In this document: positions 7,123-12,385 of the stretch, piece by piece | Position numbering within the stretch: position 1 is the stretch's first letter | Layout: each line of letters opens with the position of its first letter | Notes under the pieces: model-generated | The model's database searches: none | What the model saw: only the letters and a program-made list of their open reading frames with translations | Told to the model about the DNA's origin: nothing | DNA from: Bacillus sp. FJAT-45350 | GTDB taxonomy: Bacteria > Bacillota > Bacilli > Bacillales > NISU01 | Length of the DNA: 64,000 nt | NCBI RefSeq assembly: GCF_002335805.1 | Contig: NZ_NISU01000002.1 | Coordinates: forward strand, 76,838 to 140,837 | Reading direction: 5' to 3' | Translations under genes and position numbers: made by a program

Positions 7123-7167
7123 TTTTATTGGTTAATGAATATTAAACTATTCTTTGGAGGTTTTACT

Positions 7168-8961
7168 ATGCGTATGACAGGCCTAGCAACGGGTATGGAC
7201 ATAGAGCAGACTGTCGCTGATTTAATGCGTGCCGAGCGAAAGCCCATTGATAACATGATTCAACAAAGAGAGCAGCTACGATGGGAGCAAGAAGATTACC
7301 GGGAGATGAACTTAGAGCTCACTAAATTTCGTGATAATTTATTTGATGGGGTCATTCGTGCTTCTAATATGAGTGCGAAAGAAGCAACAAGCTCATATCC
7401 TGCAAGAGTGACAGCAGATGCGAGTGCTTCTGCATCTGCTTCAAGCTATACAATTTCTAAGGTAGAGCAGTTGGCGTCTGCAGCTTATAATGTGAGCAAT
7501 GAAAAAATAAGTGAAGGAAATATCGACCCGAATGCTAGTATTTGGTCACAACAAGAACACCTTTCTGATGCATTTACTATGAGTGAAGAAGTAGTTGAAA
7601 ATGAAAGAGTAGTAGTTGAGGAACCGACGAATGTGTTGCAGCTTTCTAACGGAGCTATTAAAACTGCAGGGGAAGACAATGAATTTATCAATGTGAGTAT
7701 AAATAATGTCGGTTATCAGGTTGTAAGTTCTATAGAGGATTTAGAAATGAATGAACAAGCAGTTTACGTAGATAAAGAACAAGGTACCTTAGTTTTTAAT
7801 GAAGAAGTTGGTAGTAGTGATGATGTTACAGTCGATTATACATATCAATCCATTGAGTTTGGTATCGATGCTTATAGCTCTAATGGAAAAGTAGAAGAAG
7901 TATTTGAATTTAATGGCTCTAGTTCCTTGAATGAGATACTTGATGAAGTGAACGATTCAGAGTTACCGGTAAATGCCTTTTATGATCCGTTTGCTGATAA
8001 GGTGTCAATTACTCGTTCTGAGACAGGTCAGTACAACGACGGTGAAGGCTCAGAAATGAACTTTAGTGGGTCATTTTTAAACGATGGCTTGAATTTAATT
8101 TCAAGTCAAGAACAAGGGGGAGAAAATGCTAAGTTTACAATTAACGGACTTAGCACAGAACGTCAGGAAAACAACTTTACAATTGATGGTGTTTCAATTA
8201 CATTACATGATACGTTTGAAGACCAAGTTACAGTAAATGTAAATGTTAATAATGACCATGTTTTTGATACGGTTATGGAGTTTGTTGAGGATTATAATGG
8301 ACTTATAGATACTGTGAATGGAAAACTAAGTGAAGATCGTAATCGAGACTTTCACCCTTTAACAGATGAACAGAAACAGGCAATGTCCGAGCAAGAGATT
8401 GAACGTTGGGAAGAGCAGGCACGTAGTGGAATGATTCGTAATGATAGAATGTTAAGTGCTGGATTAAATCAATTACGAATTGATATTTACAGTAATGTGG
8501 GACACAGTTCAAGTGATATAGGTTTTTCTCAAATAGCAGAACTAGGTATAACAACGACTAGCAACTATCAAGATGGGGGACGTCTAGAGGTAGATGAAGA
8601 GAGACTACGCCAAGCGATAGAAGAAGACCCGGAGGCAGTTTATCAAATATTTGCTAGTGATGGTGAGTCATATGAAGAAAAGGGAATAGCTCGTAGAATG
8701 CGTGACTCTCTACAAGGAACAATTGAACAGGTATCTGAAAGAGCGGGGCGGTCTGGTATAACAACCAAAGGTCAGTATACTATTGGAAGAGAGATTCAAA
8801 GTGTTAATGATCGAATCTCAAATTTTGAACGTCGAATGCAACAGGTTGAAGAACGATATTGGAATCAGTTCAACGCTATGGAGGCAGCTGTAGCCCAAGC
8901 AAATGCACAAGCTGAGTCAATGTTCTCGATGCTAGCAGGTGGAGGACAGGCGCCTATGTAG
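7168..8961 (+). CDS. Second FliD paralogue (filament cap protein)
   Basis: A 597-aa FliD homologue, paralogous to the gene at 3541. Both share the N-terminal pattern (MRMTGLATGMDIEQTVADLM here) and the C-terminal block from about residue 410, with GMIRND and NFERRMQQVEERYWNQF. The central domain differs and is Ser/Glu-rich and acidic. The ATG at 7168 follows TGGAGG at 8 bp; an ATG at 7135 lacks a ribosome site. The paralogue has its own sigma-D promoter. Bacilli usually have one fliD, so the pair suggests either alternative caps with different exposed domains or divergence after duplication. No companion fliS is nearby. Confidence 0.92.
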   Translation: MRMTGLATGMDIEQTVADLMRAERKPIDNMIQQREQLRWEQEDYREMNLELTKFRDNLFDGVIRASNMSAKEATSSYPARVTADASASASASSYTISKVEQLASAAYNVSNEKISEGNIDPNASIWSQQEHLSDAFTMSEEVVENERVVVEEPTNVLQLSNGAIKTAGEDNEFINVSINNVGYQVVSSIEDLEMNEQAVYVDKEQGTLVFNEEVGSSDDVTVDYTYQSIEFGIDAYSSNGKVEEVFEFNGSSSLNEILDEVNDSELPVNAFYDPFADKVSITRSETGQYNDGEGSEMNFSGSFLNDGLNLISSQEQGGENAKFTINGLSTERQENNFTIDGVSITLHDTFEDQVTVNVNVNNDHVFDTVMEFVEDYNGLIDTVNGKLSEDRNRDFHPLTDEQKQAMSEQEIERWEEQARSGMIRNDRMLSAGLNQLRIDIYSNVGHSSSDIGFSQIAELGITTTSNYQDGGRLEVDEERLRQAIEEDPEAVYQIFASDGESYEEKGIARRMRDSLQGTIEQVSERAGRSGITTKGQYTIGREIQSVNDRISNFERRMQQVEERYWNQFNAMEAAVAQANAQAESMFSMLAGGGQAPM

Positions 8962-9771: not shown

Positions 9772-10614
9772 TTAATTCAAAAACCCATGCTCCAAAGAAA
9801 ACTCCTCTGCATCTAACGCCTCTTCAGGCACAACGATTTCATCAATCTCATTAAAATTAGACATCGTTCCACTTACTCGTTGAATTGTGGACATTGTTTC
9901 TCCTTCAAATGTCATTTCCATTTCCATCAGCATCATCAGTTGCGTTTGGTAATAGCTTTCTTTGTCGATGTGGATCACGTATTCTAATTGTTTAATCTCC
10001 ATCATGTCAAAGATGTCGTCCATCATCATATCAGTGCCAGAGGGATCACCTAATTGCCCCATTAATTCTTGAGCTAGTGATTGAATATCTTCACCATCGC
10101 CAATTAATGTTAGTACATAATGACCATCTTCCTCAGTGAGTTGGACATTTTCGATTACGTTACTCAAGATTTTCATTTGCTCTTCTGGATTCATTTGCAT
10201 GTTAGCCATAGCTGCGATTTCAGTTGCAAACTCTTCGGGGAACTTAATCCACTGATTTTGTAGAGAATCTTTCATAAAGAGCCCTTCTTCAGTGAAGTAT
10301 GATTCTGCTACTGCCATTCCCATGTCTGGTTGGTCGCTAGCAATCTCCATTTGTTGTGAAAAGCGAAGTGGATTAACTGTCATATCCGACTGCATCTCCA
10401 TTGACATCGTAAAAGACTCTTCACCAGGTACTGACATTTCTTGTTCGGAGGACATTTCCATTGAGAAGCTTTCTAATTCTTGCATCGTTCCTATTGACTT
10501 CTCAATAATCCCTAATGCACTTACTTCATTTGTATCAACTTCCTGTGCATCACCGCAGGCAACTAAAAGCATCATGAAACTAAGTAAAAGTAATGCTTTC
10601 TTTACATTATTCAA
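9772..10614 (-). CDS. DUF6612-type lipoprotein
   Basis: A 280-aa secreted lipoprotein. Residues 1-19 form a signal peptide ending in the lipobox LVAC, so C20 should be lipidated after Lgt and signal peptidase II action. The mature part is acidic and very Met-rich, with repeated short strands such as SMEMSSEQEMS and FTMSMEMQSDMTV, as in DUF6612/LolA-like folds of Bacillota. Function is unknown; envelope location is inferred. It is convergent with the Uma2 gene and is the only minus-strand gene besides clpP. Its start is preceded by TAGGAGG on the minus strand. Confidence 0.8.
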   Translation of the reverse strand: MNNVKKALLLLSFMMLLVACGDAQEVDTNEVSALGIIEKSIGTMQELESFSMEMSSEQEMSVPGEESFTMSMEMQSDMTVNPLRFSQQMEIASDQPDMGMAVAESYFTEEGLFMKDSLQNQWIKFPEEFATEIAAMANMQMNPEEQMKILSNVIENVQLTEEDGHYVLTLIGDGEDIQSLAQELMGQLGDPSGTDMMMDDIFDMMEIKQLEYVIHIDKESYYQTQLMMLMEMEMTFEGETMSTIQRVSGTMSNFNEIDEIVVPEEALDAEEFSLEHGFLN

Positions 10615-10744
10615 AACAAAACCTCCTAATAATCTTCATGATGAAACATTACCATACTATTAAAAAATTTTACAGAATAGTAGTGATTTGTGGATTATTT
10701 CGTGTGACTGTAATATAAGGAAGGAATTAAGTAGAAGCAATGAT

Positions 10745-10965
10745 GAGGCATCGATATATGTATTGCGGCTCAGGTAGAGCATAAATGGTTAAAAAGATAC
10801 ACACGTACACCTTATCAATAATCGAGGATAAAAGACTACTGAGCAACGTGTGTCAAAACTTGCTACCGGGGAATCGGCCCCTCTAAAAGAAAGGAGAGGG
10901 AGGTACCAAGTGGAAAATCACAGCCTTCTCTGGAGACTCAAAAGAGTGTCACTGTGAAAGGTATC
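10745..10965 (+). ncRNA. Large pseudoknotted structured RNA, probably raiA class
   Basis: A non-coding stretch with unusually dense pairing. GCTCAGGTAG (10768-10777) pairs with CTACTGAGC (10836-10844) with one bulge. ACACACGT (10799-10806) pairs exactly with ACGTGTGT (10846-10853). The two helices interleave, giving a pseudoknot. ACTTGCTACC (10858-10867) pairs with GGTACCAAGT (10902-10911) with one mismatch and encloses GGGG/CCCC or CCCTCT/AGAGGG hairpins. CACAG (10919-10923) pairs with CTGTG (10952-10956), enclosing ACTC-AAAA-GAGT. It lies upstream of cspB and hpf; hpf is the gene also called raiA. The raiA RNA class is found next to that gene in Bacillota. Class assignment is by context and size, not alignment. 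Ends are approximate. Confidence 0.6.
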
Positions 10966-11262
10966 AAAAAATGCCAAATCATTTACCAATCTGTCATATT
11001 TTGAATAAATTTATTATAATCTGACACAAAAGAAATTTGCAACACAAAAATTTAAAAATTATAAATATTTTAATTATTACGTGATATTAGTGGTGAATAC
11101 TATTTTAAAAAACGGGTAAAGTAAAATTGAGACTATACAGAATGATTAGTAGGTGTATTGGGCAATAGATGTACACCCAATAAGAAATAAAGTAGAATTT
11201 TGTCTACTTATGTCATTTCGATTGAAAAGTCAATGATTATTTTGAGAAATAGACAAAATAGT

Positions 11263-11292
11263 TTGACGCCTATTAAATATTTCTGTTATAGT
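11263..11292 (+). promoter_or_regulatory. Sigma-A promoter for the cold-shock gene
   Basis: TTGACG (11263-11268), an 18-bp spacer, TATAGT (11287-11292). A leader of roughly 50 nt would follow before the ATG at 11347. The 300 bp between the structured RNA and this promoter is AT-rich, with nothing else recognised. Confidence 0.6.
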
Positions 11293-11346
11293 TAAACTGT
11301 GGAAGGGTTTCCACAGAGATTTTTATTACGAAGGGAATGTGAAAAC

Positions 11347-11544
11347 ATGCAAGGAAAAGTAAAATGGTTTAATGCAGAAAAAGGATTTGGTTTCATCGAG
11401 CGCGAAGACGGAGACGATGTATTCGTTCACTTCTCAGCTATCAACTCTGAAGGGTTCAAATCTTTAGACGAAGGACAAGAAGTTGAATTTGAAATCGTTG
11501 AAGGTGCTCGTGGACCTCAAGCTGCAAACGTAGTTAAGCTTTAA
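11347..11544 (+). CDS. cspB: Cold-shock protein, CspA/CspB family
   Basis: A 65-aa OB-fold RNA chaperone that binds single-stranded RNA and DNA. RNP1 (KGFGFIE, residues 13-19) and RNP2 (VFVHFSAI) are intact, as are the first strand KVKWFN and the ending [10 protein letters not shown]. The ATG at 11347 gives the standard family length; an upstream in-frame extension would be atypical. A promoter and a terminator flank it, so it is probably monocistronic. The symbol is by family; bacilli carry several close paralogues that cannot be told apart here. Confidence 0.95.
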
Positions 11545-11590
11545 TTCACATTCCTGGATCAAGGATTTGAATAATAGCTAGACAAAATAT

Positions 11591-11627
11591 ACCCATCTCA
11601 GTCATTTGATTGAGGTGGGTTTTTTAA
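11591..11627 (+). terminator. Terminator after the cold-shock gene
   Basis: ACCCATCTCA pairs with TTGAGGTGGGT with G-U pairs, followed by six T. Confidence 0.85.
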
Positions 11628-11629
11628 TG

Positions 11630-11745
11630 CTGAATTATGAGTGATGAATTAAGAATTCAATTGCAAATTGCAAATGTAGAATTGCAAATTTAAAGTTCTT
11701 TTGTTTTCATTCGCAATTTGCCATTTGCAATTCGCAATTGTTCTT
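11630..11745. repeat. AT-rich 7-mer arm repeats between csp and hpf
   Basis: A left arm, GAATTATGAGTGATGAATTA, is followed by TTGCAAA-type 7-mers (near 11660-11695) and, after about 30 bp, by their inverse (GCAATTTGC, ATTTGCAATTCGC) at 11710-11740. The two halves can pair. This is one member of the dispersed spacer family described under findings. It lies between the csp terminator and the hpf promoter. Confidence 0.7.
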
Positions 11746-11779
11746 CATCATTTCGACATATTTTTCTAAATTATTTTTA

Positions 11780-11806
11780 GTTTGAGAAGGATTAAATGCG
11801 GGGTAT
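11780..11806 (+). promoter_or_regulatory. Sigma-B-type promoter for hpf
   Basis: GTTTGA (11780-11785), a 15-bp gap, GGGTAT (11801-11806). This fits the B. subtilis general-stress (sigma-B) consensus, and B. subtilis hpf (yvyD) is a known sigma-B and sigma-H target. It ends 39 bp before the ATG. Confidence 0.7.
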
Positions 11807-11845
11807 ATAGAATAATAATACATAGAGGAAAGGAGGAGTTCAAAC

Positions 11846-12385
11846 ATGAACTACAACATTCGTGGTGAGAACCTAGAAGTAACTCCAGCAATTAGAGAGT
11901 ATGTTGAGAAAAAAGTGGGGAAATTAGAAAAATATTTTGATACTACCCCAATCGCAGATGTAAATGTAAATTTACAGGTGCACAATAATCAGCAAAGTAT
12001 CGAGGTTACAATTCCGATGCCGCAATTATTATTACGTGCAGAGGATACTCATAATGATCTGTATGCTGCAATTGATCTTGTAGTTGAAAAACTTGAAAGA
12101 CAAATTCGTAAGTACAAAACAAAAGTAAACCGCAAGTTCCGTCAAGAGGGCAGTCTGAAATACATGTTTACAAATGACATTGAAACTGTTGAGGAAGATG
12201 AGGACGAACTTGAAGTAGTACGTACGAAACGATTCAACTTAAAACCAATGGATGCTGAGGAAGCGATTTTACAAATGGACATGCTAGGCCATAGCTTCTT
12301 CGTATTCTCAAACTCAATAAATGGTGATACAAACGTTGTCTACCGTCGTAAAGATGGAAGATACGGATTAATTGAGCCAGAATGA
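11846..12385 (+). CDS. hpf: Ribosome hibernation promoting factor, long form
   Basis: Binds the 30S subunit and pairs 70S ribosomes into inactive 100S dimers in stationary phase or stress. The protein is 179 aa: an N-terminal HPF/RaiA domain (about residues 1-100, MNYNIRGENLEVTPAIREYVEKKV onward), an acidic linker (EDEDELEVV) and the C-terminal dimerisation domain (about 120-177, with RFNLKPMDAEEAILQMDMLGHSFFVF). AGGAGG lies before the ATG. A sigma-B-like promoter is upstream and a strong terminator downstream. Confidence 0.96.
   Translation: MNYNIRGENLEVTPAIREYVEKKVGKLEKYFDTTPIADVNVNLQVHNNQQSIEVTIPMPQLLLRAEDTHNDLYAAIDLVVEKLERQIRKYKTKVNRKFRQEGSLKYMFTNDIETVEEDEDELEVVRTKRFNLKPMDAEEAILQMDMLGHSFFVFSNSINGDTNVVYRRKDGRYGLIEPE

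Follow-up and report, generated by a model that had tools for sequence, protein, structure and literature searches.

In Bacillus sp. FJAT-45350 a gene for a DUF6612 lipoprotein (9772–10614, minus strand; Pfam PF20316, E 1.3e-59) and the cold-shock protein gene csp (11347–11544, plus strand; Pfam PF00313) point away from one another, and the spacer that adjoins both raises the question of what the stretch at 10745–10965 is for. All coordinates refer to the 64-kb stretch of this genome that was analysed, here called the window. The stretch in question has a G+C content of 0.41–0.43 and is set between A+T-rich flanks of 0.23–0.30 on each side. An earlier note on this DNA had proposed that it is a plus-strand structured RNA with a pseudoknot, lying upstream of csp and hpf and belonging either to the raiA class or to a new one. 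Its statement that no open frame accounts for 10745–10965 holds, and a structured RNA new to Rfam is very probably real, but the plus-strand reading did not stand, as the RNA most likely lies on the minus strand. The terminator, the G-U pairs and the relatives described below point to that strand, and this changes the genes on which the RNA could act. It would be divergent from csp and hpf and thus is not an upstream RNA in their direction; csp has its own promoter, TTGACG-N18-TATAGT (11263–11292, plus strand), which is conserved in relatives.

Two other features of the neighborhood are recorded here. A Uma2-family gene (PF05685, 9108–9689) sits between a fliD-like gene (7135–8961; name assigned by eye) and the lipoprotein gene, with partial matches near the same place at two related loci (L060 and L074). 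In the interval from csp to hpf, directly past the terminator of csp, the motifs TTGCAAATTG and CATTTGCAATT are repeated and inverted (11655–11745).

On the plus strand the two helices of the proposed pseudoknot are indeed present and interleave. Positions 10799–10806 pair with 10846–10853 over 8 bp with no mismatch, and 10768–10777 pair with 10836–10844 as GCTCA/TGAGC and GTAG/CTAC with a one-base bulge between them. The further helices that had been reported, at least three, were found as well (10858–10867/10902–10911, 10879–10884/10895–10900 and 10918–10923/10952–10957). As a signal the pseudoknot fares worse: the stacking energy of its two helices together is −27.6 kcal/mol, and a pseudoknot at least as strong arose in 75 of the 200 dinucleotide-shuffled versions of 10745–10965, which is chance level. 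The nested plus-strand fold is also ordinary, with z −0.23 for 10745–10965 and −1.3 for 10730–10990. Read on the minus strand, the 8-bp helix forms the foot of a terminator-like hairpin of 20 bp, and the other pseudoknot arm, 10768–10777, falls past the U-run and outside the predicted transcript.

The minus-strand fold of 10730–10990 reaches −69.8 kcal/mol (z −3.57; none of 300 shuffles was as good), that of 10745–10965 has z −2.95, and the RNA from promoter to terminator has z −2.5, compared with −0.9 on the plus strand. We consider it probable that this strand carries a free-standing small RNA of about 220 nt, predicted to occupy 10790–11006 from a start near 11006, which we infer along with its transcription, to the end of the U-run (222 nt if counted from immediately after the −10 box). 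The promoter-like site upstream, TTGCAA-N18-TATAAT (11013–11042, minus strand), agrees with the consensus at 10 of 12 positions, and a scan found such sites to be as frequent in shuffled sequence. Hairpin 1 (10918–10957) folds as a UCACAGU/GCUGUGA outer stem, with a mean pair probability of 0.95, around an inner ACUC/GAGU hairpin. Hairpin 2 (10858–10911) has the outer stem ACUUG.UACC/GGUA.CAAGU, an inner hairpin UCCCUCU/AGAGGGG (10901–10878) and a C-rich bulge, CCGAUUCCCC (10868–10877), which is predicted to be unpaired. The terminator hairpin (10799–10853; 8+3+9 bp, −18.0 kcal/mol) carries the loop UUUUAUCCUC, which contains AUCCUC, and is followed by AUCUUUUU, with the U-run AUCUUUUUA at 10790–10798 directly after the hairpin. 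Since csp has its own conserved promoter and the RNA its own terminator-like hairpin, the simplest interpretation is a free-standing RNA.

Of the 80 hpf loci taken from related Bacillaceae (numbered L below), many keep the divergent lipoprotein/csp pair, and the spacer ranges from 355 to 1070 bases when counted from likely start codons. By BLAST, the csp promoter region is the only part that the window and the relatives' spacers have in common. Minus-strand hairpins nevertheless occur in the spacers of L043, L049, L051, L053, L058, L060, L062, L064, L071, L074, L079, L122 and L136 (the start of the L136 RNA is uncertain), in the same spacer and on the same strand, between DUF6612 or flagellar genes and a divergent csp. 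Most of these clusters end in a U-run terminator; in L062 and L064 the run is weak, CUCUUU. Sites of the form TTGNNN-N17/18-TANNAT, read by eye, lie upstream of the hairpins at similar spacing. In 10 of 11 stretches, the window and relatives together, the minus-strand z (−1.0 to −7.9) is lower than that of the plus strand. As a separate observation, L130 has several tandem copies of a hairpin-like repeat of about 50 bases (TCTATTAGACAGTTCCTCCGCTTCAGATGGAGTTTCG...) upstream of its DUF6612 gene.

The covariation for which the earlier note had asked in such spacers is there. With L049, L051 and L058 as input, a model covering hairpin 2 plus terminator (model R2) recovered L043 at E 0.00055 in a search of 405 kb; the match lies in the L043 csp spacer and has the same orientation. 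In a five-sequence alignment of L043, L049, L051, L058 and L060, from which the window was left out, 91% of cells are paired, versus 40–56% with slid partners, and 24 of 34 pairs show compensatory changes, a number reached by none of 500 shuffles. Read on the minus strand, to whose structure the alignment was fitted, it contains 17 G-U cells against 2 A-C cells; on the plus strand those 17 would not pair, and so, with that fitting kept in mind, the minus strand is favored. A structure conserved among relatives, a strand preference, a terminator-like end and the lack of an Rfam family are thus supported by computation.

Does the window RNA belong with the RNAs of its relatives? A covariance model from the same five sequences, again excluding the window (model R3), was run unfiltered over both strands of 10000–12000, and its top match, with a modest score, was 10910–10800 on the minus strand (15.1 bits, E 0.0059; runner-up 9.0 bits). 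In the alignment the window's hairpin 2, with the UCCCC bulge, and its terminator hairpin fall into register with the model. R2 places the same site fourth, at 8.6 bits, and the window was not reported in the filtered R3 search of 405 kb. The window RNA has the set of features found in the relatives, namely hairpin 2 with an inner CCUC/GAGG hairpin, then an unpaired UCCCCG, then a terminator with a U-run; UCCCCG is unpaired at the same place of hairpin 2 in L049, L051, L058, L060 and the window. The corresponding pattern CCTC..GAGG..TCCCCG has a single occurrence in the window, which lies within the RNA, and none of 20,000 shuffled spacers contains it; in the rest of the 1.06 Mb compared it turns up in the L049, L051, L058 and L060 RNAs and at two other places. 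Its gaps were widened to admit the window, and it therefore counts as support rather than a blind test. It is likely, if not proven, from these matches that the window RNA is a member of the relatives' csp-spacer family. Among 387 genomes of the order, R3 recovered one, with the same score as L049, and gave no match in this sample to the genomes of L043, L051, L058 and L060; the family is thus narrow, thinly sampled, or beyond the reach of the model under stricter filters.

In Alkalihalobacterium (L071, L074, L079 and L122) the csp spacer contains an element of about 200 bases that is strongly conserved and has no Rfam match; its place and strand are those of the window RNA. It could be a more diverged form of that RNA. 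Its helices come in the same order, which led us to consider plus-strand homology to the window; this was rejected, as a model of the four elements (R1) did not find the window and has strong matches only within that genus (4 genomes among 397). Nor did R3 find the Alkalihalobacterium element. Covariation inside the genus alone is weak because most pairs are invariant. One pair of hairpin 2 varies between U-G (three of the four) and U-A (the remaining one), and the pair at the outer end of the terminator stem varies between G-C and G-U. We also note a possible covarying loop pairing in this element, of the CATTATG/CATAATG type, that differs in each species.

As an explanation of the whole, we favor, with somewhat better than even confidence, a free-standing minus-strand regulatory RNA that acts through C-rich segments. 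Transcription would begin at the promoter at 11042–11013 and stop at the intrinsic terminator 10853–10790, with the hairpins folding one after another. Hairpin 2 would then expose its unpaired C-rich bulge and the terminator loop would offer AUCCUC, and the most likely action of these segments would be base pairing in trans with G-rich Shine-Dalgarno regions on mRNAs from other loci, which would lower the translation or stability of the targets in the manner of RoxS and FsrA in Bacillus subtilis. Both of those RNAs bind their mRNA targets through C-rich regions, and for RoxS pairing with Shine-Dalgarno sequences is described (PMC8216469). By analogy with them we propose the bulge as a putative seed; it lies within the predicted terminated transcript and its UCCCCG is kept in relatives. 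Pairing with ribosome-binding sites in trans is a tentative part of this proposal, to which we give somewhat less than even confidence. We observe nine bases of complementarity in L060 between the terminator loop, ACCUCCCCCUUGAG, and the Shine-Dalgarno region of the lipoprotein gene at that locus, CAAGGGGGA.

The RNA lies upstream of the lipoprotein gene and in the same direction, and it might instead belong to the lipoprotein mRNA as its 5′ leader, acting as an attenuator or riboswitch in which the terminator at 10853–10790 stops transcription unless a signal permits read-through. In the window the sequence downstream of the terminator could then pair back (10768–10777 with 10836–10844, and 10739–10756 with 10962–10983) and close the whole fold, which is stronger with that stretch included (z −3.57 versus −2.5 for the terminated RNA); a role for these pairings would favor the leader. 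They are seen in the window only, however, and relatives have a conserved promoter-like block between the terminator and the lipoprotein gene, L043 and L049 carry the RNA with no lipoprotein gene detected beside it, and no Rfam riboswitch matches. We regard a leader as unlikely.

Still less likely, in our judgment, is that there is no regulatory RNA here, the hairpins being terminators or insulators between divergent genes, or functionless drift. The fast sequence turnover would fit this, as would the several relatives (L125 and L126 among them) whose short spacers lack the element, and the transcript is unreported; but a lone terminator needs neither hairpins 1 and 2 with their compensatory changes nor a kept UCCCCG bulge. 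Improbable, too, is an undescribed RNA family of alkaliphilic Bacillaceae in which the terminator hairpin has a second role in a longer-range fold, through the loop pairing in Alkalihalobacterium and through the read-through pairing and closing stem in the window, and which would sense a signal and switch accordingly, yielding either a short regulatory RNA or a read-through lipoprotein mRNA.

We give very little credence to a plus-strand RNA of a new class with the pseudoknot described above. Its helices are present, reading the equivalent pairing in L079 and L074 on the plus strand adds U-G pairs to it, and on that strand the Alkalihalobacterium element has a fold of about equal quality; against this stand the chance level of the pseudoknot, the weaker plus-strand z in 10 of 11 stretches, the G-U and A-C counts, and U-runs that follow the hairpins on the minus strand. 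Last, the raiA motif RNA (ModT) has nothing in its favor except closeness to hpf and is almost certainly not the answer, as RF03072 gave no match at E up to 10 in 10600–11300, none anywhere in this genome and none in 249 genomes of the order, yet as a positive control it matched 10 genomes in a sample of 101 from the phylum (nine above the cut-off), so that the search works.

At gathering scores no Rfam family matched in the window, RoxS/RsaE and other Rfam-catalogued small RNAs included, and among those of the relatives' spacers that were scanned the sole match was a csp thermoregulator at L047. Two Halalkalibacter-type relatives have c-di-GMP-I riboswitches 3′ of hpf (L060:4897–4979 and L064:5004–5088), and the window has none. 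A tRNA-like origin, suggested by the D-arm resemblance of GCTCAGGTAGAGC, was rejected when no tRNA was found, and a search for relatives at the DNA level in plasmids, phages, this genome and 348 genomes of the order gave chance matches only.

This is probably an RNA family without an Rfam entry that is nonetheless of a known kind; our narrow search of the open-access literature, of incomplete coverage and weak as evidence of absence, found no description of such an RNA. It adds a probable non-Rfam family to bacteria studied for life at high pH, and one that was detected through synteny and structure where sequence similarity fails. If the C-rich mechanism is true, regulation in the style of RoxS extends to these genera.

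Among known systems, raiA/ModT (RF03072; PMC11706538) is also a structured RNA of about 200 nt found near hpf (raiA) in Bacillota, but the window RNA does not match its covariance model and differs from it in strand and gene neighbors, and raiA was not found in 249 genomes of the order. The OLE RNA of Halalkalibacterium halodurans and its relatives is likewise a structured non-coding RNA of related alkaliphiles; it is described as a large RNA class (PMC10898510), and there is no Rfam match to OLE in the window. From the C-rich small RNAs of B. subtilis, RoxS, FsrA and CsfG (PMC8216469), the window RNA differs in having no sequence or Rfam match to them, in its genomic place and in its predicted length of about 220 nt, but it resembles them in its stem-loops, its intrinsic terminator and its predicted unpaired C-rich regions able to pair with Shine-Dalgarno sequences.
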